A stretch of 64,000 nt of DNA from Roseobacter fucihabitans (lineage in GTDB: Bacteria; Pseudomonadota; Alphaproteobacteria; Rhodobacterales; Rhodobacteraceae), in contig NZ_CP143423.1 of assembly GCF_014337925.2 (NCBI RefSeq), forward strand, positions 3,068,501-3,132,500, read 5' to 3'. This document shows positions 28,090 to 45,600 of this stretch, piece after piece. Each line of letters begins with the position of its first letter. The stretch's first letter is position 1. Both the position numbers and the translations under genes were made by a program. The notes under the pieces were generated by a model. That model worked only from the letters and a program-made list of their open reading frames with translations, was not told the origin of the DNA and did no database searches.

Positions 28090-28736
28090 GCGGCAAACTC
28101 CCTCCCAGCGCCAGCGTCGCCTCCGCTTTGGAAGGTGCCAAGCTGCACGCCCCAGCAGCGGCGCGCAACACGGAGGCTCTCTGCGGGCTTTTACGGCAAC
28201 ACGCCCCGACATCCGGGCAGGCGCTCGAACTCGCGAGCGGCACGGGTCAGCATGTGATCGCCTTTGCGGCGGCTTTGCCAGACGTCATTTGGCAGCCCAC
28301 AGAAATCGGTGTCACACGTCTGGCCAGCATCAACGCCTATGCGTCCGGGTCGGGTTTGAGCAACATCAACCCTGCGCGCGTCCTGGATGCCACGCAACCG
28401 GGATGGCACCGGGTGCATCCGGACAAGAGCCTGATCGTGCTGGCCAACCTGTTGCATTTGATCACCGAGCAGGCGGCCAACACCCTGATCGCAGAGGCCC
28501 TTATGGCGCTGGCACCGGGCGGCAGGGCCATTCTTTATGGCCCCTTCAAACGGGCTGGGACCCTTACCAGCCCAGGTGATGAACGCTTTGATGCACAGCT
28601 GCGCGGGGCCGATCCCACCATTGGCTATAAGGACGACAGCGACGTTAAGGGATGGGTGATACAGGCGGGCGGCAGTGGCATCAAAACCGTGGAAATGCCC
28701 GCCAACAACCTCGCCTTTATCGCAACCAAAGCTTAG
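28086..28736 (+). CDS. DUF938 SAM-dependent methyltransferase-like protein
   Basis: A 216-residue protein of the DUF938 family. ALELASGTGQHVIAFAAAL is the SAM-binding glycine loop, followed by WQPTEIG and VLANLLHLITEQA. FGPF-type ILYGPFKRAGTLTSPGDERFD is the family hallmark. The acceptor is unknown. ATG at 28086 overlaps the flavoprotein stop (ATGA). Its end overlaps the converging dehydrogenase by 4 bp. A longer in-frame start lies inside the previous gene. Confidence 0.87.
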   Translation: MSGKLPPSASVASALEGAKLHAPAAARNTEALCGLLRQHAPTSGQALELASGTGQHVIAFAAALPDVIWQPTEIGVTRLASINAYASGSGLSNINPARVLDATQPGWHRVHPDKSLIVLANLLHLITEQAANTLIAEALMALAPGGRAILYGPFKRAGTLTSPGDERFDAQLRGADPTIGYKDDSDVKGWVIQAGGSGIKTVEMPANNLAFIATKA

Positions 28737-31225
28737 CCATCCACGCGGATACGCTCGTTTTTAGGATCATAGGGGCTGTCCTCGACGATCTCGGCATCCC
28801 AAAGCTGATCGAGCATCTTGACCTTGAGCTTGGTGCCTTTGACGGCCAGATCCGGCGTCACATAGCCCAGGCCAATGCTCTTGCCGAAGGCCACCGAATA
28901 GCCCCCGGACGTGAGCCGCCCAACGCGCGTGTCACCGTGATACAGCGCTTCGCGCCCCCAAGGGTCTGCATCATCCGGCCCATCGATCAGCAATGTCACG
29001 CATTTTGAACGCACACCGGTTTTCTGCAAAGCGTCCTTGCCGTGGAAGTCCTTGTTGAGGTCGATAAACCGCGGCAAATCCGCCTCCAACGGGGTCGCAT
29101 CCCGGCCCAACTCATTGCCGAAAGCGCGGTAAGATTTCTCCTGCCGCAACCAGTTCTGCGCCCGCGCGCCCACCAGTTTCATACCATGCTTTTCACCCGC
29201 TTTTTCAAGCTGATCGAAGAGGTAATTCTGCATCTCGATGGGGTGGTGCAATTCCCAACCCAATTCGCCCGTATAGGCCACGCGGATCGCGCGTACCGGG
29301 CACATGCCCAGCTCAATATTGCGCATCGTGAGCCAGGGAAACCGCTTGTTGGACAGAACGGTCGCAGGATCGGCATCCTTTACGATCTCATTCAGCACAT
29401 CGCGCGATTTCGGCCCGGCGATGGCAAAGACGCCCCATTGCGTCGTCATATCATGGCATTCGATATAGCCAAACTCGGGTGCCTTATCCGCAATCGCCTT
29501 GCCCAGATAATCCGCGTCATAGGCCGTCCAAGCCCCCGCGGAGACGAGGTAATATTCATCCTGCGCCAATCGCACAATCGTATATTCCGTGCGCGTGGTA
29601 CCATGCCCGGTCAGCGCATAGGTCAAGTTGATCCGGCCAACCGAAGGCAATTTATTGCAAGTGAACCAATCGAGGAACTGCGTCGCCCCCGGCCCCCGCA
29701 CCAAATGTTTGGTGAAGGCCGTGGCATCAATCAGCCCGACGGTTTCGCGGATGGCTTTGGCCTCCTCGACGGCATATTGCCACCAGCCACCGCGCCGAAA
29801 AGAGCGCGCCCCGTGATCATCAAACCCCTCGGGGGCGTAATAATTCGGGCGTTCCCAACCGTTGACCCAACCGAATTGCGCCCCGCGCGCAGCCTGGCGG
29901 TCATAGGCGGGCGATGTGCGCAGGGGCCGACAGGCGGGGCGTTCCTCATCCGGGTGGTGCAGGATATAGACGTGCTCATAGGCCTCCTCGTTCTTGCGCG
30001 CGGCAAATTCCGTGGTCATCCAGTCGCCGTAGCGTTTGGGATCGAGGCTGGCCATGTCGATCTCGGCCTCCCCCTCCACCATCAGCTGCGCGAGGTAATA
30101 GCCCGTGCCGCCCGCCGCCGTGATGCCAAAGGAAAACCCCTCGGCCAGCCACATATTGCGCAGACCGGGTGCCGGACCGACCAGCGGGTTGCCATCGGGC
30201 GTATAGCAGATCGGGCCGTTGAAATCATCCTTGAGACCACATTCCTCAGCCGACGGGATGCGGTGGTTCATCGCCATATACTGATCTTCGATCCGGTCCA
30301 GATCGAGCTGAAACAGATCGGCCCGGAAACTGTCCGGCACGCCGTATTCAAACCGCGCAGGGGCGTGTTTTTCATAAACCCCCAGGATCCAGCCGCCGCG
30401 CTCTTCACGCACATAGGATTGCGCATCGGCATCGCGGATCACAGGATGTTCGACATTTCCCTCGGCGCGGAATTTCACCAGCTCGGGATCCTGATCCATG
30501 ACGATGAATTGATGCTCCACGGGAATCGCGGGGATTTTGATGCCCAGCATCTGTGCGGTGCGCTGCGCATGGTTGCCCGATGCGGTCACGACATATTCGG
30601 CGGTGATTGTGATCTGCTCATCCGATGGGATCAGATTGCCGCCCTTTTCCACCATCTTGGTAGCCGTGACCTCCCAATGCGTGCCGTTCCAATGGAAGGC
30701 ATCCACCTGCCATTTGCGCTCGATCATCACGCCGCGTTGTCGCGCACCCTTGGCCATCGCCATGGTGACGTCAGCGGGATTAATATAGCCATCGGTGTGG
30801 TGATAAAGCGCGCCCTTGAGGTCTTCGGTGCGGATCAAGGGCCATTTCGCCTTGATCTCCTCCGGCGTCATCCACTGATAAGGCACACCACAGGTCTCGG
30901 CGGTGGAGGCATAGAGCATATATTCATCCATGCGCGCATCAGTTTGCGCCATGCGCAGGTTCCCGACAACGGCAAACCCCGCGTTCAGACCGGTTTCCTC
31001 CTCCAATGTCTTATAAAAACGAATGGAGTAGTCATGGATGTGCGTTGTTGCATAAGACATGTTGAAATATGGCAAGAGCCCGGCGGCGTGCCATGTGGAG
31101 CCAGAGGTCAGTTCGTCCCGCTCCAGCAGCATTACATCGTCCCAGCCCGCGCGCGCAAGGTGATAGGCGATGGAGGTGCCAACCGCACCGCCTCCGACGA
31201 CAAGAGCTTTGACCTGGGTTTTCAT
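28733..31225 (-). CDS. Dimethylglycine/sarcosine dehydrogenase-like FAD-GcvT fusion
   Basis: An 830-residue enzyme of two halves. Residues 1-430 are a FAD oxidoreductase (VVGGGAVGTSIAYHLARAG, SGSTWHAAGLLP with the covalent-flavin-type His region). Residues about 430-830 are a GcvT/aminomethyltransferase-like part (WWQYAVEEAKAIRETVGLID, RVAYTGELGWELH, LTSGGYSVAFGKSIGLGYV) that would hand a one-carbon unit to tetrahydrofolate. Substrates of such fusions are N-methylated glycines from betaine or choline. GGGAG lies 10 bases before the ATG. It stands alone, downstream of the mobile-element region. Confidence 0.9.
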   Translation of the reverse strand: MKTQVKALVVGGGAVGTSIAYHLARAGWDDVMLLERDELTSGSTWHAAGLLPYFNMSYATTHIHDYSIRFYKTLEEETGLNAGFAVVGNLRMAQTDARMDEYMLYASTAETCGVPYQWMTPEEIKAKWPLIRTEDLKGALYHHTDGYINPADVTMAMAKGARQRGVMIERKWQVDAFHWNGTHWEVTATKMVEKGGNLIPSDEQITITAEYVVTASGNHAQRTAQMLGIKIPAIPVEHQFIVMDQDPELVKFRAEGNVEHPVIRDADAQSYVREERGGWILGVYEKHAPARFEYGVPDSFRADLFQLDLDRIEDQYMAMNHRIPSAEECGLKDDFNGPICYTPDGNPLVGPAPGLRNMWLAEGFSFGITAAGGTGYYLAQLMVEGEAEIDMASLDPKRYGDWMTTEFAARKNEEAYEHVYILHHPDEERPACRPLRTSPAYDRQAARGAQFGWVNGWERPNYYAPEGFDDHGARSFRRGGWWQYAVEEAKAIRETVGLIDATAFTKHLVRGPGATQFLDWFTCNKLPSVGRINLTYALTGHGTTRTEYTIVRLAQDEYYLVSAGAWTAYDADYLGKAIADKAPEFGYIECHDMTTQWGVFAIAGPKSRDVLNEIVKDADPATVLSNKRFPWLTMRNIELGMCPVRAIRVAYTGELGWELHHPIEMQNYLFDQLEKAGEKHGMKLVGARAQNWLRQEKSYRAFGNELGRDATPLEADLPRFIDLNKDFHGKDALQKTGVRSKCVTLLIDGPDDADPWGREALYHGDTRVGRLTSGGYSVAFGKSIGLGYVTPDLAVKGTKLKVKMLDQLWDAEIVEDSPYDPKNERIRVDG

Positions 31226-33123: not shown

Positions 33124-34272
33124 TCAAGCCGCGATCTGAGCCCGATTGATCTGTTTGTGGCGTCGCGCGATGATGTTGAAGACTTCGCGAGCTATGTATC
33201 GCTTGACGCAGCGGATTGCTTCGAGTTTGGAATGGCCTTGGGCTACTCGGCGCGCCACGTATTCTTGGGTCTTTGAATCCAGTCGCAACCGTCCAATTGC
33301 AATGATATGAAGCGCGCTGTTGGCGGCACGGTCGCCGCCCCGGTTCAACCGGTGGCGTGTTGTTTTGACTGATGACGCCGGAACCGGACTGACACCGCAT
33401 AGAGCAGCAAAGCTTGTCTCTGATCTCAGTCGTTCAGGATTGTCACCTGCAGTCAGCAAAAGTTGGGCCGCGCTGTTCAACCCAATTGAGTTGCGTGCGA
33501 TCAGCTCTGGAGCCAGGTCTTTGACAATTGCTTCGATCATATCGTCAAGGTCGGCCACTTCGTCATGCAGTTCGAGATAACGACGTGCCAGTGATTTGAG
33601 CGCGATCTTGTAGGCTTCTTCAACATCCCGATACCCTGATAAGTCGGGCTGCCAGGCCGCCAAAGTCCGTATCAATTGCATACGGGTCATTTTGCGCAGA
33701 GTGTCGCGCAATCGATCCGGAGCGCAAACAATTGTCGTCTGGATTATTTGCAGCGCGATCCGGCGTGCTTGAACCGCATGCGTCGGGCAAACAGCGCCCC
33801 ACGCTGTTTGCTGGTCCTCCTCATTGCGGCAAACCTTCAATACACGCAGGGATTCCACCATTCTATCTCGACTGCGCGGGGTGACTGTGCGCCGCTCTGC
33901 GAAAGCCGCATGGGCGGTACTTTCAGCATCAAAGTCATCATTCTTGCCGCGCCGTCTTCGATCCAGCTTGTGTGGTGCGGTTACCTCCAGAACATCAACA
34001 TCAGCGACCTGCATATATCTTAAAAGTCCTGCGCCGCAACTGCCGGTGCATTCCACCCCAATGCGCTGCAGGTTCCCGAATGACCGCATCCACGCCAGCA
34101 TCAACTTGTAACCCTGCCGCGTCGTCGCAAAGTTCTGCGTGCCCAGCACTTGATCATTATCATCGACAACTGCCGCAACATGAAGATCTTTATGCGTATC
34201 AACCCCGCCAACGACTGGGATGGTTTGCTTAGTTTTGCCCATGGGATCATCCTTTGCGGCGGCTTTCGACAT
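33124..34272 (-). CDS. IS110-family transposase (DEDD recombinase)
   Basis: A 382-residue, apparently intact recombinase. The DEDD RuvC-like domain shows GGVDTHKDLHVAAV (first Asp), IGVECTGSCGAGLL (Glu) and DDFDAESTAHAAF (last Asp pair). The C-terminal Tnp2 domain shows FAALCGVSPVPASSVKTTRH, RLNRGGDRAANSALHIIAI and the catalytic-Ser region. The start ATG at 34272 was taken; an internal ATG at 34242 (MGKTKQ) also works. This is the only mobile-element protein in the 31-36 kb region that looks complete. Confidence 0.92.
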   Translation of the reverse strand: MSKAAAKDDPMGKTKQTIPVVGGVDTHKDLHVAAVVDDNDQVLGTQNFATTRQGYKLMLAWMRSFGNLQRIGVECTGSCGAGLLRYMQVADVDVLEVTAPHKLDRRRRGKNDDFDAESTAHAAFAERRTVTPRSRDRMVESLRVLKVCRNEEDQQTAWGAVCPTHAVQARRIALQIIQTTIVCAPDRLRDTLRKMTRMQLIRTLAAWQPDLSGYRDVEEAYKIALKSLARRYLELHDEVADLDDMIEAIVKDLAPELIARNSIGLNSAAQLLLTAGDNPERLRSETSFAALCGVSPVPASSVKTTRHRLNRGGDRAANSALHIIAIGRLRLDSKTQEYVARRVAQGHSKLEAIRCVKRYIAREVFNIIARRHKQINRAQIAA

Positions 34273-34527
34273 ACTTCACCAGAAAGAATGCACGGACAGG
34301 ACAGTCATGAGACCAAGTGGTCAGGCCCTTCTTTGGTCACGCGATATCTTCGAGACGAAGCCTCACCGCAAAGCGTTCCCGGATGATCGACAGGTCCAGG
34401 GAAAGACACAAGTCAGGTCGATCGGAGTGAGGGTCAGATCACACCAAGAGGCCAAGCGGTACCAACCCAACGAATGGTCGATCGGTGTTAGAGTCAAACC
34501 ACCCGAGAACTGGTGTCCATTCTATGA
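34273..34527 (-). ncRNA. Candidate IS110 bridge RNA region
   Basis: The 255 noncoding bases between the transposase start and the element end lie where IS110-group elements encode the bridge (seek) RNA that pairs with target and donor DNA. Two imperfect direct repeats, TCGATCGGAGTGAGGGTCAG (from about 34419) and TCGATCGGTGTTAGAGTCAA (from about 34480), could form related RNA loops. The assignment rests on position and established family knowledge only; I did not derive a fold. Confidence 0.4.
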
Positions 34528-35439
34528 CTGTCGGAATGGATCATGACCTTTTGCTTTGGCTTGCGTCGCCAAACCGCGGCCAAGAGCGCTTGTAGGGCGA
34601 GATCGGTTGTCATACGCGCCCAAATACTTGCCTGCGATGTGGTGGTGTGTGCCAACCTCAGCGCGACGCAGGCGGCTAAAGAAGCTTTCCGCTTGGTTGG
34701 TGCAGGCACCATTTTTGGAATATGCGATCTGGTGGTTGATGCGCTTTATTGGGAAGTAGGCGGCCAGCTTGTCCCAGTGTGACGCTTCGTCAGCGTGAAC
34801 TGTGGAGCCGTGCTGCACGTTTGCGGCGACCAGAGCGACGCCTTCGGCCTCTGTGGCGGTCACATAGGTAATTGTGCGGCCACCACGCTCACGCATGACG
34901 ATAACAGACTGACGCTTGCCGGACTGGTGGATTTTCTTGCGGCGGTCCTTGCGGTCCTTCTTTTCGTTTGCGGGCTTAACATAGCCACCGAAGTAAGCGC
35001 CATCCACTTCGACAGAACCGGACAATGCGCCTTCGTTGCGGGCAATCTCTATGCTTTCGCGGACCTTGTGCAGCAGGACGAACGCGGTTTTGTAGTCAAC
35101 CGACAGATCGCGGGACAACTGCAATGCGCTGTAGCCCTTTGCGCCGTTTATAAAGATCGCGATTGCCGCCAGAATATCGCGGATCGCCAGTTTGCGGCTT
35201 GCGAAGATCGTGCCAGAGGTCAGGCTGTATTGCTTTGCGCACCCTTTGCACTTGTATACCTGACGTGTTCTGAGGTCGTAGGCTTCACAGCAACCGCACT
35301 CTGGGCAATATGGTGCGCCATCGGTGTCAGCGAAGCGGATATTGCGGACAGCATCGCGGGCTTCGTCGTGAGACATGCGCATGACCTTCACAAGTGAAAG
35401 TGTTTTGGCTGCGGGCGAGAGTAGAAAGTGCTGTGACAT
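34522..35439 (-). pseudogene. IS1595-type transposase, C-terminus replaced by IS3 sequence
   Basis: Starts MSQHFLLSPAAKTLSLVKV (ATG at 35439; a longer start is only nominal). It carries the zinc ribbon CPECGCCEAYDLRTRQVYKC, the first DDE residue in VEVDGAYFGGY, the second Asp in VHADEASHWD, and NQAESFFSRLRRAEVGTHHH. After YLGAY the frame runs into the IS3 fragment (NRSRPTSALG...), so about the last 40 residues are foreign. It is a different lineage from the transposase at the left edge. All DDE positions survive, so partial activity cannot be excluded. Confidence 0.82.
34528..34622 (-). pseudogene. IS3-family OrfB transposase, internal fragment
   Basis: One frame reads RMTTDLALQALLAAVWRRKP then KQKVMIHSD, the block just before the second catalytic Asp in IS3-type OrfB (normally HSDxGSQFT). 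It breaks off in HSD at about 34528, and the matching continuation (FTGAEWQ) is at 33096, across the IS110 element. On its other side it joins, at about 34617-34622, to a truncated IS1595 transposase. Confidence 0.85.
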
Positions 35440-35456
35440 ATCATATCCGATGATGT

Positions 35457-35517
35457 TATACATCGTATACAGGTATAGTGTTCATCACATGCAAGAGTTA
35501 TATCATCATAAATGATG
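35457..35517. promoter_or_regulatory. Palindromes in the divergent IS1595/DUF6471 promoter region
   Basis: TATAC-ATC-GTATA (35457-35469) and CATCAT-AA-ATGATG (35504-35517) are perfect inverted repeats in the AT-rich gap between the two divergent starts. The DUF6471 protein looks like a small HTH-type protein, so these may be its operators. Confidence 0.45.
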
Positions 35518-35534
35518 TATTTTATGAGGATTCG

Positions 35535-35765
35535 ATGATGTCAGCAACAGATGCCTATGAAGCTAAAGCCAAGAATATACTGAAATCCGAACTCAAACGG
35601 CGCGGGATCACTTATGCCCAGTTGGCGGAAAAGCTTGCCGCCTTTGGTGCTACCGAGAATGAGCGCAACCTTGCGAACAAGATAAGCCGGGGCAGCTTCA
35701 CGGCTGCATTCTTTATGATGTGTATGGATGCAATAGGTGCCAACAACGTCAACCTAGAAGCGTGA
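35535..35765 (+). CDS. DUF6471-type small HTH-like protein
   Basis: A 76-residue protein. The pattern KNILKSELKRRGITYAQLAE, then ENERNLANKISRGSFTAAFF, matches the DUF6471 family as I remember it and looks like a Cro/C1-type helix-turn-helix (ITYAQLAEKL as helix 2-3). GAGGA precedes the double ATG at 35535/35538. It faces away from the IS1595-type transposase across 95 bp and lies inside the IS3 boundaries. A regulatory role for that transposase is an inference. A weak hairpin (ACACT...AGTGT near 35780-35795) follows the stop. Confidence 0.72.
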   Translation: MMSATDAYEAKAKNILKSELKRRGITYAQLAEKLAAFGATENERNLANKISRGSFTAAFFMMCMDAIGANNVNLEA

Positions 35766-35862
35766 TCGCGCATAAAAACACTAAATAAAGTGTATTACTT
35801 CATCATGTTTGGTGAGCTTGCTCCATAATGTCGTAAAATTACCAAGCAAAGCGTCTAGAAAT

Positions 35863-36429
35863 CTAGGGGCACCTCAGCCCTTCATCCGAAATGTCGTTAA
35901 ATGTGACTGCGAAGGAGTCATAGGTTTGTGCTCTCAGGCAGCCAAGCTCCACCAAACGGCATTGCCTGGCGAAGACCTTCACGGAAAGCTCGCGGCTGTA
36001 TTCGCCTGCCATGACTCGCTTGACGGTCTTCAGCAGGTTAGAGCCGATGCTGCTGTCGTTTTCGAACTGCTCGCCACAATAATGGACCCGGATCCCGGCA
36101 CGAGAGCAGACATGCTCGTGACAGGCCCCTTTATCAGCATCCTGAAGCTGGCCCCAGCGGCTGACGTCACAGACCAGAATGGCCCTGAAATCAGCCTGGA
36201 CTGTTCGGACCTCGACCATCAGGTTCTGCAGCGCCTCGCGGCCGTACAAGCGCAATCCGAACCGTCCGGAGTCGTCAAAGACGCGCAGGATCTGCAAACC
36301 CCGGACGGAAGCAAAATTCCGGATTATGTCGAGCTGGTTCTCGGTCGAGCACTTCTGGTGATCGGTCGACATCCGCACATAAACTGGGATTGCACCACAA
36401 TGCTCAGATGTGGCCAAAACCGGCCACAA
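35863..36429 (-). pseudogene. Serine recombinase (resolvase/invertase) N-terminal remnant
   Basis: The frame reads VYVRMSTDHQKCSTENQLDI, with the catalytic Ser in RMSTDHQ, then FDDSGRFGLRLYGREALQNL, AILVCDVSRWGQLQDAD and LLKTVKRVMAGEYSRELSVK, the catalytic domain of a large serine recombinase. After RLVELG the sequence loses the family and runs into the IS3 end; the whole C-terminal DNA-binding part is missing. Several residues in conserved blocks are odd (CDVSRWGQ, GIRVHYCGEQ). It is a cut and decayed integrase-like gene, probably from a former island. Confidence 0.82.
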
Positions 36430-36546
36430 CTACTTGCCTCCTGCTTCCTTCCACAAACTTTTACACAGGGATCACACCTAACTTTAGGTTGCATTTTTCA
36501 GATTTTTTGGTTAACATTTGCTATTCTTTGATTTATTTGGCTTGGT

Positions 36547-37551
36547 TTGGATGTGAATTTCCGGAACCGCTTTCATTTTTATACTCTGGTGTTGGCATTT
36601 GCGATTATCCCCCCGCAGAGCCACGCAGATTTGTTAATTTACCACTTTGATGTGGAAACCGGGGATTCCACCCTGATCATGGATACTGTGTCCCGCCGGA
36701 GTTTGCTTGTCGATGCCGGCGACAGAGGATACGGGCGAAATATTCTGGTGCCAGAGCTGAAGAAACTGGGCCTTAACCAAATCAACTACTTTTTGGCGAC
36801 ACATTACGATGCGGATCACATCGGTGGTTTTCACGAGCTGATCGATGAGGGCATTCTGTTCACGGAGGCTGTTTTTGATCGAGGTGGCGTCACCAGTCGA
36901 ACCGAAACGACGGCAAAAGGGAACAAGACGGAATACGGGACCTATATTGAATACGCCTCCTCACTCAGAACGACACTTCGGCCCGGATGCGACAAGACGA
37001 TCGACTTGGGCCCGGATATCTCCGTCATGGTCGTGGCCGGTGCGGGCGAATTTCTGAAAGAAACTAAACCGTCCTGCGTTCTGGACAGTATTTCCATACC
37101 CAAGAACAAGGACAACGATCTGAGCATCGCTCTGGTGATCTCAATCGGCAACTTTTCGTATTTCATCGGTGGGGATCTGACGGGTGGCGGCAACGGCACG
37201 AAAAAGATGGAGCCGCTGGTGGCCCGTGCGGTGGGGGACATTGACGTTCTCAAGGTGAACCACCACGGCTCGGAAACCAGTTCAAACGAAGATTTTCTGC
37301 GGTTTCTGTTGCCCGAGGTGGCCGTGATTTCCATCGGCAATGGCGGGCGGAACCTGAAGTATCGCTTGCCACGACAGTCAATTTTGGACCGTCTGTCGGA
37401 TTTGGAAAGTGACCCCACCGTTTTTCTCACCAACAGCGGCGAAGGTGGTCGCTTGTCCGACAGCTATGTCGAGGATCGCCATATTATCGTATTCTCGGAT
37501 GGCGAGAGTTATCACGTGAACGGCATCATTTATTCAGCGAATGACAACTAG
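36547..37551 (+). CDS. Secreted ComEC-like MBL-fold protein
   Basis: A protein of about 333 residues with a signal peptide (LVLAFAIIPPQSHA) and a metallo-beta-lactamase fold of the ComEC/Rec2 C-terminal type. It has H86-x-D88-x-D90-H91 in THYDADHIGG, GGDLTGG and VNHHGSETSS; the middle contains PKNKDNDLSIALVISIGNFS. No ATG is in frame; TTG 36547 or GTG 36553 would start it and no clear ribosome site is visible, so the start is uncertain. It stands 27 bp before the membrane-protein gene. ComEC-type domains act on DNA or nucleotides, but a secreted stand-alone form has no assigned role here. Confidence 0.82.
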   Translation: MDVNFRNRFHFYTLVLAFAIIPPQSHADLLIYHFDVETGDSTLIMDTVSRRSLLVDAGDRGYGRNILVPELKKLGLNQINYFLATHYDADHIGGFHELIDEGILFTEAVFDRGGVTSRTETTAKGNKTEYGTYIEYASSLRTTLRPGCDKTIDLGPDISVMVVAGAGEFLKETKPSCVLDSISIPKNKDNDLSIALVISIGNFSYFIGGDLTGGGNGTKKMEPLVARAVGDIDVLKVNHHGSETSSNEDFLRFLLPEVAVISIGNGGRNLKYRLPRQSILDRLSDLESDPTVFLTNSGEGGRLSDSYVEDRHIIVFSDGESYHVNGIIYSANDN

Positions 37552-37578
37552 GAATTCGAACGTTTTGAGGAGCGCGCA

Positions 37579-38535
37579 ATGACAGACCAACAGAACAGCA
37601 TTCCCGACCAGCCCGAAACGGAAACCGGATTCATGAGTATCTTTCGCCGCAAAGCTGGGCGCGAAATTAACATCACCGAAAAGCTGCTGGATGACGTCGG
37701 CCTATTGGCCCAGCATGGCGTGCGCACAGGTCGGGTGCCCGCCGACGTCAGTTTCCAAGATATTTATAACGCCCGCATTCAGTGGGAGACCAAAGGCGAA
37801 CTCTCACCGCAGGAAATCGGACTTCTGGTGGAGGCCTACCAAAAACTGCAAAGCCAGTTCGCCAATGTCACCCCCGACACCCTGAGCGCCACAACGCCGG
37901 AAAAAGAGGGTAAGATGCAGACCAGTCCAGCTGGCCGATATCTGTTCAAACTATGGATTACCGTCATCGTGATGATCGTGATGGTTCTGTTGTCCAATTT
38001 CCTGCAGTTCTACCACGATTTCAACTTGACGGATTTTGAGGAGGAATGGGAAGACTGGGACTATAAAGTCAGTTACGCTTATCAGTTTTCGCAATATATG
38101 GAGCCCTTCGTTTATGGGACGCTTGGCGCGTTGGCGCATATGTTGAGGGTGACGGCCCGGACGCTGCGAGATCGGGAATTTGACCCCAGTCGTGCGCCTG
38201 AACACATTAATCGCATCATTCTTGGCACGCTGAGCGGCGGTGCCATCATCCTGTTTATTGCACAAATAACCGACGAAGACGGTCAGCTCCTGCAAATCTC
38301 GGCGGCCGCTCTGGGTTTTATCGCCGGGTATAGTGTGGATTTTCTGTTCCAGACAATTGACAGGATCGTAGAGGCCATCTTGCCACAGGTTGGTCTTTCT
38401 ACAGTTCAGTTGCGCCAGAAGAATGCTCGCAACCTCGACCTTCTGGCTCAATATCGGGACCTGCTCAACACCGAGACCGACGCTGCGAAGAAAGAGCTTC
38501 TAAAAGACGTCGTGTCTGACCTGAAGCGCCTGTAA
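37579..38535 (+). CDS. Four-helix membrane protein, partner of the MBL protein
   Basis: A 318-residue protein not matched to a known family. Residues 1-119 are soluble and acidic. Hydrophobic segments lie at about 122-143, 176-192, 211-230 and 237-258, separated by a very acidic loop (TDFEEEWEDWDYK, 151-163). The C-terminus (270-318) is charged and helical (LRQKNARNLDLLAQYRDLL). GAGGAG precedes the ATG. It follows the secreted MBL gene by 27 bp, so both are likely one operon. The soluble-plus-membrane make-up could be an exported effector with a membrane sensor or carrier; this is speculation. Confidence 0.8.
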   Translation: MTDQQNSIPDQPETETGFMSIFRRKAGREINITEKLLDDVGLLAQHGVRTGRVPADVSFQDIYNARIQWETKGELSPQEIGLLVEAYQKLQSQFANVTPDTLSATTPEKEGKMQTSPAGRYLFKLWITVIVMIVMVLLSNFLQFYHDFNLTDFEEEWEDWDYKVSYAYQFSQYMEPFVYGTLGALAHMLRVTARTLRDREFDPSRAPEHINRIILGTLSGGAIILFIAQITDEDGQLLQISAAALGFIAGYSVDFLFQTIDRIVEAILPQVGLSTVQLRQKNARNLDLLAQYRDLLNTETDAAKKELLKDVVSDLKRL

Positions 38536-39061
38536 ACCGCGAGACCAGTCCGGTGCAGGCCGCCAAACCTAATAGCTTTGGGTGCCTTTTTGGACCGGGA
38601 TATCGATTTTTGGCAATTTATTGATGCGTGGCAACAGAAAACGGGGGAATTCGGGGCGAAACTGACGCGCAAAAAACGAAGGCATGTCAATCAACGCGGC
38701 GCTGCGAACCCATCGTGATGCGCCGATCCGATTGTCGACGCGGCAACACCTGATCACGCCGAAAAAATACCGCGGAGCTTGCCCAAAAGCTGGCAGGGCC
38801 GACCCCGCGCTTGGCCCAATGGACCTCGTTCAACGGGTCCGTCAAATCGGACCCAAGGCAATTTTGGGACGCTTTAGCCACAGTTGTTGAATGTAATGGA
38901 CGACCGTTTCGGGCCGTCCTCAGCCCCTGAGCACGATTCATTCAAAGTCTGGAGTGACTTCAGATTGGCATCTCAACGGACATCACGCGGGAACAGATAC
39001 GGCTTGGGCAAATGAGCTTCGACATTTTTCCAATGCTTGAAACCACATATTACGGGGGCAG
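38536..39061. other. 526-bp stretch without a recognisable gene
   Basis: Several short open frames occur on the minus strand (for example 38569-38757, ending NKLPKIDIPVQKGTQSY), but none has a ribosome site or a family match. A GC-rich hairpin (GGACG...CGTCC, about 38898-38919) lies 140 bp beyond the fmdB stop and could end that operon. Nothing else was seen. Confidence 0.4.
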
Positions 39062-39391
39062 TCAGTGCGAGATCATCCAGGGCCGTTTCGTCGGGAAAGA
39101 CTTTGCGCCATTGGCATGATGCAGGGTCTTGGAGGGGCGTGCTTTGGAAGACGAACAGCATGAACACCCCGGCCCATGACTGGACCTTTTGGGGCTGTCG
39201 GCGCTGCGTTCATTTGTTTCATGCGCACGACGCGTACCGCCCGACATGACGGCAAGCCTCGGTGCGTTCAATAAAACGCGGGGCGCGCTGCTGGCGCATT
39301 CCGGGCACTCACAGGGCACATTGAACCGCTCCAGAGTGGCGAAGGCGGTAAAGGGACCGCAGTCCTCGCAATAATAGTCATATAGAGGCAT
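39062..39391 (-). CDS. fmdB: FmdB-family zinc-ribbon protein
   Basis: A 109-residue protein with the FmdB zinc ribbon: MPLYDYYCEDCGPFTAFATL then VPCECPECASSAPRV, giving two C-x2-C pairs. The tail is Ser/Cys-rich (GPGCSCCSSSK). FmdB was named from the formamidase locus of Methylophilus, where it was proposed to regulate fmdA. AGGAG lies 6 bases before ATG 39391. It is the last gene of the amide operon, 59 bp after fmdA. Confidence 0.85.
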   Translation of the reverse strand: MPLYDYYCEDCGPFTAFATLERFNVPCECPECASSAPRVLLNAPRLAVMSGGTRRAHETNERSADSPKRSSHGPGCSCCSSSKARPSKTLHHANGAKSFPTKRPWMISH

Positions 39392-39450
39392 GTCCTGCTC
39401 CTTGTTGTTTGGGGGCCGGGCGGCTTGCATCAAACCGCCCGTTGTATTTT

Positions 39451-40680
39451 TCAAAGATCCGGCGCAATCGGCATATCAACGGAGCCATCGAGATATTTCT
39501 TCGGGCCATCGGCGTTGGGCATCATGTCCCATTCGAATATATCGTTCGGCAACCAAAGCGTGGCACAAGCGTTGGGAATATCAACAACGCCGGAAATGTG
39601 CCCCTGCACTGGGGCCGTTCCGAGAATGGAGTAGGCCTGCGCGCCAGTGTAGCCAAATTTCTTCAAATACTCTATGGCGTTAAGGCAAGCCTGCCGGTAG
39701 GCAATATGTACATCAAGGTAGTGCTGCTCACCACTCTCATCGACAGAAATCCCCTCAAAAATCAGGAAATCATCATATTGCGGCTTGATCGGAGAAGGTT
39801 TGAAGATCGGGTTCTTGACCCCGTATTTCTCCATGCCAGCCTTGATGACCTCAACCTTCAGATGCAGCCAACCGGCCATTTCGATGGCCCCGCAGAAGGT
39901 GATCTCACCGTCACCCTGGCTGAAATGGAGGTCCCCCATCGAAAGGCCTGCGCCGTCCACATAAACGGGGAAATAGATCTTGCAGCCCCGGCTCAGATCC
40001 TTGATGTCGCAGTTCCCGCCATGTTCGCGCGGGGGCACCGTGCGGGCGGCTTCCATGGCGGCCTTGTCACGTGCATCACCCTGCATGGCACCCATATGCG
40101 CGCTTTGTGTATTGGGCAGCGCAGCCAGCGGCGGTACACGCTCGGGGTCGGTGTTGAAAAGCTTGGTCTCGCGGCTGTTCCACATGTCCAGCATCTTGCG
40201 ATCCGGCAAACACCCGATCAGGCCGGGGTGGATGAGCCCTGCGTATTTCACGCCAGGCACGTGGCGGGATTTGGTGAACATGCCGTCGAAATCCCAGATC
40301 GATTTCTGTGCCGATGGGAAGTGATCGGTCAGAAAACCACCCCCGTTGTTCTTGGAAAAGAAGCCGTTAAAGCCCCAGTTCATCTCTTCCTTGGCACCGA
40401 TGTCCAGAATTTCGACGACCAGCAGATCGCCCGGTTCGGCCCCTTTGACGCCAATGGGTCCCGAGAGGTAATGCACCTGTTCAAGTTCCACATCGCGCAC
40501 ATCGGAGGCATCATCGTCGTTTTTGATCTGCCCGCCGGTCCAGTCGTAGGTTTCGATCTTGAAATCATCGCCCTGCTCAACCCAGATGTTGATGGGAATG
40601 TCAGGATGCCAGCGGTTGTGGATATTCTCGTTCGTGTGCGGGCTTTCGCTGAGATCCACAGAAATTAATGTGTCTGCCAT
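39451..40680 (-). CDS. fmdA: Formamidase
   Basis: A 409-residue enzyme of the acetamidase/formamidase family that hydrolyses formamide to formate and ammonia in the cytoplasm. Family stretches are ESPHTNENIHNRWHPDIP, LVVEILDIGAKEEMNWGFNG, HVPGVKYAGLIHPGLIGCLP and DLSRGCKIYFPVYVDGAGLS followed by MGDLHFSQGDGEI. AGGAGAGG lies before the ATG. It is co-directional with the ABC genes, 33 bp after the second ATPase. The formate produced may link to the molybdenum-dependent formate dehydrogenase implied by fdhD. Confidence 0.93.
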   Translation of the reverse strand: MADTLISVDLSESPHTNENIHNRWHPDIPINIWVEQGDDFKIETYDWTGGQIKNDDDASDVRDVELEQVHYLSGPIGVKGAEPGDLLVVEILDIGAKEEMNWGFNGFFSKNNGGGFLTDHFPSAQKSIWDFDGMFTKSRHVPGVKYAGLIHPGLIGCLPDRKMLDMWNSRETKLFNTDPERVPPLAALPNTQSAHMGAMQGDARDKAAMEAARTVPPREHGGNCDIKDLSRGCKIYFPVYVDGAGLSMGDLHFSQGDGEITFCGAIEMAGWLHLKVEVIKAGMEKYGVKNPIFKPSPIKPQYDDFLIFEGISVDESGEQHYLDVHIAYRQACLNAIEYLKKFGYTGAQAYSILGTAPVQGHISGVVDIPNACATLWLPNDIFEWDMMPNADGPKKYLDGSVDMPIAPDL

Positions 40681-40713
40681 GGTGTAGGTCCTCTCCTTCT
40701 TAGTTTCTTGACG

Positions 40714-41403
40714 TCAAACGGATAGAAATTTCGATACGCGGTCGGCGTCGATGCCATCGCGGGGGCTGTCATGGACAAAACTCCCGTTCTCGATCACGAT
40801 CACCCGGTCAGCCACGTCCAGCGCAAAGCTCAAAACTTGTTCTGACACGACGATCGTCAGGTTTTTCTCGTCGCGAATGCGGCGCAGGGTGCGGGCCATT
40901 TCGCGGATGATCGACGGCTGAATGCCCTCAGTTGGCTCATCAAGCAAAAGCACCTTCGGCGCGCTTGCCAGAGCGCGTGCAATGGCCAGCTGCTGTTGTT
41001 GACCGCCAGAAAGGTTGCCCCCCCGGCGCGACTTCATTTCCAACAGCACCGGAAAGAGTTCGTATATGTCCTCGGGGATATCCTTGGAGCCTGTCGTCGT
41101 AAGCCCGGTTTCGATGTTTTCGCGCACGGTCATGGAGGAAAAGATCATCCGACCCTGTGGCACATAAGCAAGCCCCGCGGCCACGCGCTGGTGCGGTTTC
41201 ATGCCATAAACAGAGGTTTCGCCCACCCGCGCGTCGCCGTCCCTTTCGGGCAGGATACCCATGAGCGTCTTCATCAGCGTGGTTTTGCCCATGCCATTGC
41301 GACCCATTATGGCGACAATCTCGGCTGGTTTCACGTCCAGGTCGAGACCGTGAAGCACTTCGGATTCGCCATAGGCCGCGCGGAGATTCTTGATCGAAAG
41401 CAT
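40714..41403 (-). CDS. Amide/urea ABC transporter ATP-binding protein (UrtE/LivF type)
   Basis: A 229-residue ATPase. Walker A is GRNGMGKTTLMKTL, the signature is LSGGQQQQLAIARALAS and Walker B is VLLLDEPTEGIQPSI. Architecture matches the second ATPase of branched-chain amino acid/urea importers. It works with its neighbour ATPase on the two permeases. It is 12 bp from the first ATPase gene. Confidence 0.92.
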   Translation of the reverse strand: MLSIKNLRAAYGESEVLHGLDLDVKPAEIVAIMGRNGMGKTTLMKTLMGILPERDGDARVGETSVYGMKPHQRVAAGLAYVPQGRMIFSSMTVRENIETGLTTTGSKDIPEDIYELFPVLLEMKSRRGGNLSGGQQQQLAIARALASAPKVLLLDEPTEGIQPSIIREMARTLRRIRDEKNLTIVVSEQVLSFALDVADRVIVIENGSFVHDSPRDGIDADRVSKFLSV

Positions 41404-41415
41404 GGAGGCTCCTTT

Positions 41416-42165
41416 TCAGTGGCCGAGATAAACTTCGATGACCTTGGGGTCGTTTTGCACCCGTTCCATGGAGCCCTCAGAGAGGGTCTTGCCCTGGTGC
41501 AATACGGTCACGCGCGTCGCGATATCGGCGACAAATCCCATGTCGTGCTCGATCACAATCACCGAACGGTCCTTGATAATCGTGTTGAGAAGTTCCGCGG
41601 TTTTCTTGCGCTCAGCCACAGACATGCCCGCAACGGGTTCATCCAGCATCAGAAGTTCGGGGTCCTGGATCAGCAACATGCCAATTTCGAGCCATTGCTT
41701 TTGCCCATGGCTCAGAAACGCGGCTTTCTCATCAAGCAATGCCTCGAGGAAAATCGTCTTGGCGATCTCCTTAATCCGTGACCTGACCGCGTCGTTACGA
41801 CGAAACGTCAGCGCGCCAAAAACGCTGTAACCATGCGGGTAGGACAGCTCCAGATTTTCGAAAACCGTCAAGTCCTCGTAAACCGAAGGTGTCTGGAATT
41901 TGCGCCCGACACCGGCATGCACGATCTGATCCTCGCGCATGCTCAAGAGTTCCTGACCCTTGAAATTGACGGACCCGCTGGTCGCCATGGTGCGCCCGCA
42001 GATAAGGTCAAGCACGGTTGTCTTGCCGGCACCATTTGGGCCGATGATGACGCGGCATTCATTGGGCTCAACATAAAAGCTGAGGTCATCGACCGCCTTG
42101 AACCCGTCAAAAGAGACGGTCAGCCCTTCGACGGAGAGAACGAAATTGGGGTTCTGGTCCAACAT
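41416..42165 (-). CDS. Amide/urea ABC transporter ATP-binding protein (UrtD/LivG type)
   Basis: A 249-residue ATPase. Walker A is GPNGAGKTTVLDLICG, the signature LSHGQKQWLEIGMLLIQDPE is of the UrtD/LivG type (SHG instead of SGG), and Walker B is LLMLDEPVAGMSVAE. ERKKTAELLNTIIKDR follows. Located between the permease and the second ATPase with 11- and 12-bp gaps. Confidence 0.92.
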   Translation of the reverse strand: MLDQNPNFVLSVEGLTVSFDGFKAVDDLSFYVEPNECRVIIGPNGAGKTTVLDLICGRTMATSGSVNFKGQELLSMREDQIVHAGVGRKFQTPSVYEDLTVFENLELSYPHGYSVFGALTFRRNDAVRSRIKEIAKTIFLEALLDEKAAFLSHGQKQWLEIGMLLIQDPELLMLDEPVAGMSVAERKKTAELLNTIIKDRSVIVIEHDMGFVADIATRVTVLHQGKTLSEGSMERVQNDPKVIEVYLGH

Positions 42166-42176
42166 GGGTCTGTCTC

Positions 42177-43316
42177 CTATTCCGCCGCCGCGCGGGTTGC
42201 GTCGTCAGGCTTGGTTGCGTCGGTCGCGGATTTTGCCAAAAGGCGGTTGATGCGCGGGGCGACATGGTCGGCGTAAAGCCCGGCCAACCCGTTGGGAAAG
42301 AGCATCACGACAGCGATGAACAGACCGCCAAGACCGAACAGCCACAACTCCGGAAAGCTCTCAGAGAGCGAGGTTTTTGCCCAATTCACCAAAAGCGCGC
42401 CATAGACCGCACCGATGATGGACAGACGCCCGCCCACAGCACAGAAGATCACCATTTCGATGGAGGGCACGATGCCGACAAGCGTCGGCGACATAAACCC
42501 GACCTGCAAAGTGAACATGGCCCCGCCGATCCCGGCAAATGCAGCGCCCAAGCAGAAGATGAAGATCTTGAAGCTTGCAACGTCATAACCGGAAAAGCGC
42601 ACCCGGTCTTCCTGATCCCGCATCGCGATAAGCAGGCGGCCCAGTTTTGATTTGCGCACGAATTGCGCGATGAACAGGCAGATGAAGAGCAACACGCCGT
42701 TGACGTAATAGAGCGTCTCTTTTGCGGCCTCAGTCCGGATGTCCCAGCCCTGCAATGTGCGCAGATCGGTAATGCCGTTCACACCGCCGGTGAAACCCTG
42801 TTGCCCGATGATCAGGATCGTCAGGATCGCGGCGAAGGCCTGGGTGATGATCGCAAAATAAACCCCGCCCACGCGCCGACGAAACATCGCCATGCCGATG
42901 ATAAAGGCGAATATGACCGGCACCGCGACAACCGCAAAAAGGGCAAAAGCGAGATGGCTGAACGGTTCCCACCACCATGGCAAAGCTGTGAGCTGGTTCC
43001 AATCCATGAAATCGGGGATGCCGGGCGTGGATTGGATGGACGTGTTTTCAGGTGTTGAGGCTTCGAGTTTGAGAAACATCGCCATGCAGTAGCCGCCCAG
43101 TCCGAAGAAGACGCCTTGGCCAAGGCTGAGGATGCCACCGGCCCCCCAACACAGCACCAGACCGACCGCGACGAAAGCGTAGGTCAGGTATTTGCCAAAC
43201 AAGTTGAGGCGGAAGCTGTCCAGTGCCAGCGGCAGGACAATGAAGATGATCGCGGCGAGTATGGCAAAGCCAACGATGTCTTGCCGGGTGAACAGGCGGT
43301 TGGAGGCGATGCTCAT
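42177..43316 (-). CDS. Amide/urea ABC transporter permease (UrtC/LivM type)
   Basis: A 379-residue inner-membrane permease. It has the LivM-like GLGGYCMAMFLKL and SGYDVASFKIFIFCLGAAFA blocks, and the EAA-like GLGGLFIAVVMLFPNGLAG near the C-terminus. The N-terminus is helical with SFRLNLFGKYLTYAFVAVGL. Partner of the LivH-type permease next to it (12-bp gap). Together they import short amides or urea, by analogy with FmdE/FmdF and UrtB/UrtC. Confidence 0.92.
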   Translation of the reverse strand: MSIASNRLFTRQDIVGFAILAAIIFIVLPLALDSFRLNLFGKYLTYAFVAVGLVLCWGAGGILSLGQGVFFGLGGYCMAMFLKLEASTPENTSIQSTPGIPDFMDWNQLTALPWWWEPFSHLAFALFAVVAVPVIFAFIIGMAMFRRRVGGVYFAIITQAFAAILTILIIGQQGFTGGVNGITDLRTLQGWDIRTEAAKETLYYVNGVLLFICLFIAQFVRKSKLGRLLIAMRDQEDRVRFSGYDVASFKIFIFCLGAAFAGIGGAMFTLQVGFMSPTLVGIVPSIEMVIFCAVGGRLSIIGAVYGALLVNWAKTSLSESFPELWLFGLGGLFIAVVMLFPNGLAGLYADHVAPRINRLLAKSATDATKPDDATRAAAE

Positions 43317-43328
43317 CTGTCAGGCTCC

Positions 43329-44255
43329 TTATTTGCGCAGCTTGAGGGTGAACAGACCTTGCGGGCGGATCATCAGGATGCCGACGACAATCAGCAGCGT
43401 CAGCACTTTGGCCATCGAACCGGAGAGGAAGAATTCCATGATCGACTGTGCCTGACTGATCGAAAAGGCGCTGGCGATGGTGCCGAGCAGGCTGCCTGCG
43501 CCACCAAAGACCACGACAAGGAAGGTATCCACAATATAGAGCTGCCCCGCTGTGGGCCCGGTCGATCCGATCATCGTGAAGGCGGAACCCGCCACGCCCG
43601 CGACACCGCAGCCGATGCCAAAGGTCAGACGGTCGGTCCAGGCGGTGTTGATCCCGACCGCATCGGCCATCACCCGATTTTGGCTGATCGCGCGTACCTG
43701 CAGACCCCAAGAGGAGCGAAACATCAGATAATAGACGGCCAGCGAGATCGTTACTGCCAGCACCATGACAAATATGCCGTTGATCGGGATTTCGACCAGA
43801 TCGGTGAGCGGTAGCGATCCCATCATCCAATCCGGGATGCTCACGCCGACTTCGCGCGCACCGAAAACGCTGCGATAGAGCTGCTGCAAGATCAGGCTCA
43901 AACCCCAGGTGGCGAGCAATGTGTCAAGCGGGCGTTTGTAGAGGTGTCGGATCATCGCCCATTCAACGAAAAGACCCAATAAGCCGGACGCGAAGAATGC
44001 GATGATCATTGCGACAAAGAAATACATGCTAAAGAGGCCAGGCAGATAGGCCTCAAACAGATTGGACGTCAGATAGGTCATATAGGCGCCGAGGATCATG
44101 AACTCGCCATGCGCCATGTTGATCACGCCCATTTGGCCAAAAATGATGGCCAAACCCAAGGCCATCAGCACGAAGACCGAGAACAGAATAAGGCCGGCGA
44201 AGCCCTGCATGGCGAAAATCGCGCCTAGTTCGCTCATTGAGTAGTCGGCAAACAT
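43329..44255 (-). CDS. Amide/urea ABC transporter permease (UrtB/LivH type)
   Basis: A 308-residue permease with about eight helices. The family motif GQMGVINMAHGEFMILGAYM is in the first third; QNRVMADAVGINTAWTDRL and VVVFGGAGSLLGTIASAF are in the last third. ATG at 44255 preceded by GGAGG is preferred over a longer frame that starts before the hairpin. It follows the binding-protein gene by 73 bp, which contain a strong hairpin. Confidence 0.9.
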   Translation of the reverse strand: MFADYSMSELGAIFAMQGFAGLILFSVFVLMALGLAIIFGQMGVINMAHGEFMILGAYMTYLTSNLFEAYLPGLFSMYFFVAMIIAFFASGLLGLFVEWAMIRHLYKRPLDTLLATWGLSLILQQLYRSVFGAREVGVSIPDWMMGSLPLTDLVEIPINGIFVMVLAVTISLAVYYLMFRSSWGLQVRAISQNRVMADAVGINTAWTDRLTFGIGCGVAGVAGSAFTMIGSTGPTAGQLYIVDTFLVVVFGGAGSLLGTIASAFSISQAQSIMEFFLSGSMAKVLTLLIVVGILMIRPQGLFTLKLRK

Positions 44256-44289
44256 CCTGTGCCTCCGTGTCATGTTGGGGGAGAAAGGC

Positions 44290-44318
44290 GGGGGGCGTAT
44301 CCTGGCAATACGCCTCCC
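44290..44318. terminator. Hairpin between binding protein and permease
   Basis: An 11-bp stem (one G-U pair) around a seven-base loop (CCTGGCA): GGGGGGCGTAT and ATACGCCTCCC pair as seen on the plus strand. It directly follows the binding-protein stop at 44329 on the minus strand. It fits a partial terminator or mRNA stabiliser that keeps binding-protein mRNA higher than permease mRNA. Confidence 0.75.
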
Positions 44319-44328
44319 CTTGCGGTGC

Positions 44329-45600
44329 TTACTGGTAGCCTTCCGGGAACGGATCCGGCTCCACCAACTCCGCAGTCTCAAAGACCACTTCATATTGACC
44401 ATCCGCCTGCGCACGGCCCACGCGGGTCTTGGACCACAGATGGTGATTTTCGTGTATTTTCACGTATCCCTCGGGCGCGGTTGTCATCTCAATACCTGGG
44501 CTGGCCTCGCGCACTTTATCCACGTCAAAGGAACCCGCCTTCTCGACCGCAGCCTTCCACAGCCAAGGTCCGAGGTAAGCCGCCTGCGTCACGTCACCGA
44601 TCACGATGTCCTCGCCCCACATCTCCTTGAAGGCCTTGACGAATGCGAGGTTGTTTTCGTTCTGAAGGCTCTGGAAATATTTCATGCAGGCATAGGTGCC
44701 TTCGATATTCTCGCCGCCGATGCCACGGATTTCATCCTCGGTCACGGAGATGGTCAGCACCATCGGGCTTTCACCTGCCGGATCGATCCCCGCGGCTTTC
44801 AACTGCTTATAGAATGCCACATTGGAACCGCCGACAACGATGGCATAGATCACATCGGGCTTGCGCAGGCGGATCTTGTTGATGACGGAGTTGAACTGGG
44901 TATGGCCCAGCGGATAATATTCCTCGCCCACAACCTTGGAATCCGGCAGGAAATTTTCGATATGCTTGCGCGCGATTTTATTGGATGTGCGTGGCCAGAT
45001 GTAATCGGACCCGAGAAGATAAAACGACTTGGCGCCTTTGGTTTCAGAAACCCAATCAAGGCCCGCGATGATCTGCTGGGTCGCTTCCTGGCCCGTGTAG
45101 ATCACATTGGGTGACTGCTCGAGACCTTCATAGAAAGTCGGGTAATAGAGGAACCCGTTATGCTGCTCAAAGACCGGCAGAACCGCCTTGCGGCTGGCGG
45201 ACGTCCAGCAACCCATGACGGACGCAACCTTGTCATTCACCAGCAATTTGCGCGCCTTTTCCGCAAATGTGGGCCAGTCAGACGCGCCATCTTCCTGAAT
45301 ATATTCGATCTTGCGACCCAGAATACCACCCTGAGCGTTGATCTGTTCGATGGCCAGTTTTTCAGCCTGAACGGAACCGGTCTCCGAGATTGCCATCGTG
45401 CCCGTGACGGAATGCAGAATTCCGATCGTGACGGTGTCATCAGTCACTGCGAGGCCGGTTGTGTTGACTTCAGCGGTAGGAAAATCAGCGGCGCGCAGGC
45501 TTTTGGGCAAAAACAGCGAGGCTGTCATCGCGGCGGTGCCAGCCATAAACGCACGACGGCTCGCGCCTGTCATCTTTGCCGGGAATTTCTTATCAGACAT
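44329..45600 (-). CDS. Amide/urea ABC transporter substrate-binding protein (UrtA/FmdD type)
   Basis: A 423-residue periplasmic binding protein with a twin-arginine-like signal (SRRAFMAGTAAMTASLFLP, R15-R16), suggesting export in folded form. The mature part begins at about AADFPTAEVNTTGLAVTDDT and includes VTIGILHSVTGTMAISETG, GSDYIWPRTSNKI and GPWLWKAAVEKAGSFDVDKV, typical of UrtA/FmdD. GAAAGGA precedes the ATG; a longer nominal start is a TTG. It is the first gene of the operon. Specificity (urea, formamide or acetamide) follows from fmdA next door. Confidence 0.9.
   Translation of the reverse strand: MSDKKFPAKMTGASRRAFMAGTAAMTASLFLPKSLRAADFPTAEVNTTGLAVTDDTVTIGILHSVTGTMAISETGSVQAEKLAIEQINAQGGILGRKIEYIQEDGASDWPTFAEKARKLLVNDKVASVMGCWTSASRKAVLPVFEQHNGFLYYPTFYEGLEQSPNVIYTGQEATQQIIAGLDWVSETKGAKSFYLLGSDYIWPRTSNKIARKHIENFLPDSKVVGEEYYPLGHTQFNSVINKIRLRKPDVIYAIVVGGSNVAFYKQLKAAGIDPAGESPMVLTISVTEDEIRGIGGENIEGTYACMKYFQSLQNENNLAFVKAFKEMWGEDIVIGDVTQAAYLGPWLWKAAVEKAGSFDVDKVREASPGIEMTTAPEGYVKIHENHHLWSKTRVGRAQADGQYEVVFETAELVEPDPFPEGYQ

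Follow-up and report, generated by a model that had tools for sequence, protein, structure and literature searches.

A ComEC-like protein and a four-helix membrane protein form a two-gene unit whose relatives suggest a modular, envelope-associated nuclease system

Two adjacent genes of Roseobacter fucihabitans encode a stand-alone, ComEC-like MBL-fold protein and a four-helix membrane protein, and close relatives of the membrane protein in other genomes are paired with predicted exported enzymes of three unrelated nuclease folds. The genes lie in the window, by which we mean the whole 64,000-nucleotide stretch of DNA analysed. We propose that the pair could be one of several forms of a modular two-gene system, in which an exported nuclease and a dedicated four-helix inner-membrane protein together form a DNA barrier at the envelope, and we put this tentatively, at slightly under an even chance.

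The first gene (36547–37551, plus strand) was read from its open reading frame and translation as a protein of 334 residues. Its start codon is TTG, and no clear ribosome site was seen upstream. As the earlier note on this DNA had claimed, the N-terminus is signal-peptide-like by sequence and by a simple hydropathy scan, with a basic n-region, a hydrophobic core and Ser-His-Ala before Asp28, and residues ~1–27 are the predicted signal peptide. Hydropathy is the only basis for all signal-peptide calls reported here, for this protein and for the partner enzymes of the relatives described below. The metal-binding motif, His86-x-Asp88-x-Asp90-His91 (codons at 36802–36819, plus strand), is intact in the translation and invariant in alignment A4. 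Asn190, Ser193, Asp210 and His239-His240-Gly241-Ser242 are also present, and all of these residues are invariant with respect to the closest relative (in genome G403, 42% identity). The last four form part of the sequence Asn-His-His-Gly-Ser (residues 238–242; codons at 37258–37272, plus strand), which aligns with the H-H-G-S of ComEC. Both motifs had been picked out earlier and both stand, with the qualification that Asn238 is not kept in the G403 relative.

Pfam assigned the protein to Lactamase_B (5.8e-08). The best NCBIfam match was ComEC_Rec2 (TIGR00361), a partial match of 77.4 bits against a cut-off of 190.05, spanning only profile positions 440–650 of 663, and the top PDB sequence was also ComEC (7.2e-14). 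The likeness to the ComEC C-terminal MBL domain, its best PDB relative, extends to H-x-D-x-D-H, N-x-x-S, the single aspartate, H-H-G-S and a predicted extracytoplasmic location; the available part of the report on the crystal structure of a ComEC MBL domain describes the H-x-D-x-D-H motif (PMC12455585). The window protein differs in standing alone with a predicted signal peptide of its own, and no competence channel or OB domain was matched. As neither it nor the next protein matches the ComEC channel domain in Pfam or NCBIfam, and given its own predicted signal peptide, we rejected the idea that the pair is a ComEC remnant; the previous description of a ComEC-like but stand-alone protein is borne out.

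PADLOC models gave only partial matches to the MBL protein, the best being LmuA, RTasMBL, a PDC-M48B model and Avs1a, the last at 41.9 bits against a curated score of 420. According to the accessible portion of PMC12799240, the gated MBL nucleases (Avs1a, LmuA, RTasMBL and HamM, from the AVAST, Lamassu, Hachiman, DRT and canu systems) similarly place a ComEC-like MBL beside a partner gene, with a partner protease as the activator in those tested. In the window, by contrast, the MBL gene adjoins that of a membrane protein, and the MBL protein itself begins with a signal-peptide-like stretch. No protease gene lies beside the MBL gene: the downstream product is the membrane protein, which has no protease match, and upstream are resolvase, DUF6471 and transposase pieces. 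With no protease next door, an AVAST-type pair was rejected.

The second gene (37579–38535, plus strand) begins 27 bp downstream of the first, with GAGGAG six bases before its ATG, and the reading frames and translations agree with the two genes as originally described. Translation, hydropathy, charge and clade alignment A3 together describe a 318-residue protein with an N-terminal helical cytosolic part, TM1, TM2, a conserved cytosolic loop, TM3 and TM4 with the motif G-Y-S-V-D-F, and a helical C-terminal tail, where the topology was deduced from charge. Three helices of the window protein exceed the hydropathy threshold, and because the second helix passes it in all five clade relatives, four is a fair count, as first proposed. 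The strongly acidic loop noted at the same time is present in the window protein, but it is not a family trait, being weaker or absent in the clade relatives.

The membrane protein gave no match reaching the cut-off in Pfam or NCBIfam and nothing up to E 1 in PADLOC or PHROGs, and the clade profile matched no PDB sequence up to E 1. The earlier statement that it belongs to no known family therefore holds across these libraries, and membership of a housekeeping family was rejected, given its rarity and the absence of any library match. Single-chain structure models were of poor confidence; the mean pLDDT of 51.5 for the membrane protein counts against the modular-nuclease reading, as does the absence of a matching PADLOC model.

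Sequence conservation within the clade is uneven. Mean pairwise identity is highest in TM4 (0.71), TM2 (0.56), the stretch after TM4 (0.53), the cytosolic loop (0.45) and TM3 (0.42), and lowest in periplasmic loop 1 (0.19), the N-terminal part (0.22), the C-tail (0.24) and TM1 (0.27). The contrast between the conserved TM2, TM4 and cytosolic loop and the variable periplasmic loop 1 is as expected of a putative fixed core with a partner-specific outer face. However, the N-terminal cytosolic part is also variable, and loop 1 is not the sole variable region, which counts against the idea of a partner-specific loop.

Profile A2 of the membrane protein was searched against 385 genomes of the class Alphaproteobacteria, the window's own included. 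Six exceeded 100 bits (G151, the window's own, G204, G210, G310 and G403), the next genome reaching 50.6 bits, and among 398 genomes of the phylum there was no further genome above 100 bits, the next being G541 at 62.6. The clade is rare. A tree of 13 proteins groups the six members together with 100/100 support against seven wider-family members; it does not resolve the branching inside the clade, so partner swaps cannot be counted.

At all six clade loci, where neighbours were found by reading open reading frames on both strands together with a Pfam scan, the membrane gene is adjacent to a predicted exported nuclease-fold gene that overlaps it or lies within 27 bp, making a tight two-gene unit. 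The partner is a ComEC-like MBL protein in the window (27 bp upstream of the membrane gene), in G403 (L054 8603–9727, overlapping the membrane gene) and in G310 (L053 9242–9955 and 8833–9348, two frames, the latter overlapping the membrane gene). It is an Endonuclease_NS protein, with a 4 bp overlap, in G151 (L011 9227–10285, Pfam E 6.9e-19) and G204 (L051 180–1199, Pfam E 7.5e-23), and a DNase I-like EEP protein in G210 (L052 8698–9717, 7 bp downstream, Exo_endo_phos 3.2e-08). Every partner has a hydrophobic, signal-peptide-like N-terminus by hydropathy; the overlaps and N-termini depend on the start codons chosen. The MBL copy of G310, which occupies two overlapping frames across L053 8833–9955, is either a broken gene or a sequencing error.

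PDB sequences were compared with one enzyme per fold, namely the window MBL and the partners in G204 and G210; the top match for G204 was EXOG, followed by Serratia nuclease and EndoG, and that for G210 was DNase I. For the G210 enzyme, NCBIfam matches to MnuA and ExeM/NucH were weak and fell far short of the cut-off, and neither this enzyme nor that of G204 matched a PADLOC defence model. The translations contain RGH and N...W..LE (G151 and G204) and QE, GDFN and SDH (G210), which we take to be catalytic motifs. G310 and G403 belong to the same genus, leaving at most five independent clade loci; a rough estimate, assuming that 0.4% of genes have such a neighbour, gives a chance of ~1e-12 for five of five. 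Since three unrelated nuclease folds share one membrane partner, the sequences argue for nucleic acid as the simplest common substrate and for the membrane protein as the fixed part. The earlier note had called the genes a two-gene unit and had asked whether they co-occur elsewhere. The MBL and membrane proteins are indeed paired in two other genomes (G310 and G403, one genus), the tight spacing recurs, and the pairing of the clade membrane protein with two further exported nuclease folds is stronger evidence still.

The reverse search gave a matching picture. Profile A4 of the MBL protein matched in 25 of the same 385 genomes but exceeded 100 bits in only three (G403, the window's own and G310), and the membrane protein is next door in all three. 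Around 26 loci of other MBL matches in 22 genomes, no open reading frame of the membrane family was found within the ~1.5 kb flanks; some of these loci overlap, and the set leaves out four further places. The window type of MBL protein and the membrane clade go together, and we rejected the proposition that ComEC-like MBL proteins in general bring the membrane protein with them. A match on a Klebsiella plasmid was also rejected as an instance of the two-gene unit, the next annotated neighbour there being a DUF3006 protein.

To the left of the pair (33124–36429), Pfam identified the remains of mobile elements, namely an IS110 transposase, an IS1595 transposase, a DUF6471 protein and an N-terminal piece of a resolvase, much as the earlier phrase ‘mobile-element graveyard’ suggested. 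The DUF6471 protein (35478–35765) adjoins the IS1595-type transposase at the edge of this debris. To the right, blastn against congeners defined a genus-conserved block (39062–45286, minus strand) that contains, from a reading of the translations, a small FmdB-type protein, formamidase and the start of a urea-type ABC transporter. Formamidase is present in 10 of 19 genus genomes, the window's own included. The DNA match of the nine other bearers ends at 39061–39066 in six (in one of these within a short separate piece), at 39064 in a short piece in one, and at 39455 in two, and no piece of the pair occurs in ~13 kb on the formamidase side of these nine congeners. The gene to the left of the debris (28733–31225) is found in 19/19 genus genomes, and in G012 it lies on the same contig as the formamidase gene, ~1.8 Mb away. 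Because the congener match ends to the right of the pair and the flanks are ~1.8 Mb apart in G012, the pair sits at a gene-order breakpoint.

The GC content is 52.0% in the MBL gene and 52.7% in the membrane gene, against 58.7% for the whole window. The AT-richer 5′ end remarked on earlier is also evident, with GC at 49.0% over the initial 200 bases of the MBL gene and 36.8% at 36430–36546. When 390 genomes of the same order were searched by profile, only the window's own contained the window type of membrane protein (1/390), and the two weak matches (G972 and G1106) are different proteins of ~640 residues. At L140 1027–2943 and L141 397–2325, proteins of ~640 residues carry a membrane core and a long extra C-terminal part, and are followed by a small lipoprotein-like gene. 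The pair was probably acquired horizontally, in line with the origin first suggested for it.

Beyond the clade, a profile built from 20 members, themselves part of the resulting set, gave 37 distinct loci in the retrieved sequences at an E-value threshold of 1e-4, with duplicates merged; this count leaves out marginal matches in G221, G148, G659 and G319 and plasmid matches in Vibrio THAF191c and THAF64 and Caballeronia SL2Y3. A nuclease neighbour (Endonuclease_NS in both G455 and G872) is present in at least 2 of the 31 non-clade loci, a lower bound given that most loci were read for same-strand open reading frames within 900 bp, with whole stretches scanned using partner sequences. Flanks were ~1.5 kb for G541:C118, G972 and G1106, and G204, G241 and G096 lie near contig ends. 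The low count speaks against the modular-nuclease reading. The G455 unit (L056) comprises a small exported protein, the membrane protein and the endonuclease, and the G872 unit (L108) a small exported protein, the membrane protein, a Zn-dependent phospholipase C, a small protein and the endonuclease. The small exported protein alone is the partner in G541 (L062) and in G124 (L014, grouped by eye). Elsewhere, a double lamin-tail-domain (LTD) protein (L018 5121–5897) lies just upstream of the membrane protein on the Vibrio sp. THAF191d megaplasmid, a DUF6765 protein is the neighbour in G181 (L067), and subtilase and phosphoesterase genes are near, though outside a tight unit, in Paraburkholderia phymatum (L107). 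No such neighbour was seen within the regions read at the rest of the 31 loci, most of which are solo or beside other genes.

In the scheme that we favour, the signal peptide would export the MBL enzyme to the periplasm, where, judging from its motif and homology, it may cut DNA as a metal-dependent phosphodiesterase, probably with Mn2+, in the manner of the ComEC MBL domain. The variable periplasmic loop of the membrane protein would serve to hold or license the nuclease on the outer side of the inner membrane; the conserved TM2–TM4 core and cytosolic loop might perform a job common to all versions, such as clustering, envelope sensing or sitting at DNA entry sites. The genomic pairing places MBL, Endonuclease_NS or DNase I-like enzymes beside the same platform, and we infer that they are functionally interchangeable. 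The benefit, the weakest step, would most likely be the destruction of foreign DNA crossing the envelope, be it phage, gene-transfer-agent, plasmid or free DNA. A fuller version of the proposal, modular envelope-level defence in which the membrane platform and interchangeable exported DNases (MBL, His-Me finger or DNase I-like) destroy foreign DNA in the periplasm and the host's own DNA escapes because of its compartment, not its sequence or modification, is possible but doubtful. If true, self and non-self DNA would be told apart by location, by a nuclease kept outside the cytoplasm and tied to the inner membrane. Finding three unrelated nuclease folds on one conserved partner would also provide a role, open to testing, for an unnamed membrane family.

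SNIPE (2026), which cuts phage DNA during injection, likewise stations a nuclease at the inner membrane at the point of DNA entry, and the proposed system would be its counterpart in the periplasm, with exchangeable nucleases. As described in the available part of PMC13190303, SNIPE is one protein with GIY-YIG and DUF4041 domains and a cytoplasmic nuclease, whereas here there are two proteins and the nuclease is predicted to be outside; neither GIY-YIG nor DUF4041 was matched by Pfam in the MBL or the membrane protein. EndA and NucM are likewise exported or membrane-attached, non-specific endonucleases, of the type paired in G151, G204, G455 and G872. EndA retains its signal sequence as its own anchor (PMC3764208), and the portions of the EndA and NucM literature at hand mention no dedicated membrane partner of the window-type family. 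A nuclease at the site of DNA entry is thus a known idea. The membrane family and the two-gene arrangement with exchangeable nucleases are, to the extent of our searches, undescribed: among the matches listed, titles and abstract starts in the open literature, a scope outside which most subscription papers and bioRxiv preprints fall, contain no description of such a pairing.

The genomic setting speaks on both sides of a defence role. PADLOC places PD-Lambda-3_B (6e-79) and PDC-S21 (5.4e-124) on either side of the wider-family unit of G455. Of the clade, only the window locus adjoins mobile genes in the flanks as read, which counts against the barrier reading; the surroundings in G151, G210, G310 and G403 are metabolic genes, the G204 unit is close to the end of its contig, and reading the clade flanks by eye turned up no defence gene. 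Ten neighbours, mostly from other loci, were compared with defence models and returned only MTase_I and a weak AbiZ match, both near a second, distant copy in the window's genome. The membrane protein matched nothing in 50,697 phage records, which counts against the modular-nuclease reading, and viral contigs held no confirmed relative of either protein. The defence function that the earlier note thought conceivable is accordingly not established: four clade loci lie among metabolic genes and the defence-like setting belongs only to the distant member in G455. For the competition role that the note raised alongside it, nothing in these results speaks either way.

The best-placed alternative is DNA uptake or processing, with the exported enzyme as an entry nuclease and the membrane protein as its dock in transformation or DNA import. 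Endonuclease_NS-type entry nucleases are known in Streptococcus pneumoniae (EndA, PMC3764208) and Moraxella catarrhalis (NucM, PMC6384898), and the MBL domain of ComEC, a Mn2+-dependent nuclease, plays an important part in transformation (PMC8579336), as the parts of these sources available to us state. Against this, the membrane protein has no ComEC channel match in Pfam or NCBIfam, the clade profile matches no PDB sequence, and no pilus or competence gene was noticed when the clade flanks were read by eye. DNA uptake machines are usually core, unlike this patchy and probably acquired unit. We consider uptake unlikely, and between it and defence we lean towards defence because the unit is patchy and probably acquired, one wider-family member has a defence-like setting, and SNIPE offers a precedent.

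A role in nutrient scavenging or the turnover of biofilm DNA, with an exported DNase breaking down DNA outside the cell and the membrane protein sensing or importing what is released, seems to us rather unlikely. Secreted members are well known for each of the three nuclease types, the sub-cut-off MnuA and ExeM/NucH matches of the G210 enzyme point the same way, and four of the six clade loci as read have metabolic neighbourhoods. Yet a dedicated four-helix partner with a large cytosolic part would be needless for a secreted scavenging enzyme, and no nucleotidase or nucleoside transporter was noticed inside the units.

It is improbable that the membrane protein is instead an immunity or quality-control partner of exported hydrolases generally, with a non-nucleic substrate in the window such as a phosphodiester in envelope polymers: the LTD, DUF6765, Zn-dependent phospholipase C, subtilase and phosphoesterase genes near wider-family members would suit it, but the clade neighbours are nuclease folds in six of six. 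The window MBL does match phosphorylcholine esterase CbpE/Pce in the PDB (7.8e-09), which favours this alternative and makes a non-DNA substrate possible for the window version, but the best ComEC match (7.2e-14) is the better of the two. Pce is also, in the part of the source available, the closest structural relative reported for a ComEC MBL domain (PMC12455585), so a CbpE match is to be expected.

Several further features of the wider family were observed. The small exported proteins directly upstream of its members are 167–187 residues long (L056 6172–6699, L062 6094–6597, L014 4835–5398 and L108 5974–6528); none of the four matched Pfam and neither of the two tested matched NCBIfam, and two carry Y-F-D-W-R-T-W while the other two have looser forms. 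The distant copy in the window's genome (G000:C1:590810–591346; L010 8796–9725, minus strand) is 25% identical to the membrane protein; it has a type I methyltransferase gene nearby and an apparent IS3-type transposase next to it, with no nuclease seen adjoining. In four genomes of one genus (L016, L057, L058 and L068), a partnerless membrane gene of the wider family is found near the same kind of neighbour, and here it appears to be a stable solo gene.
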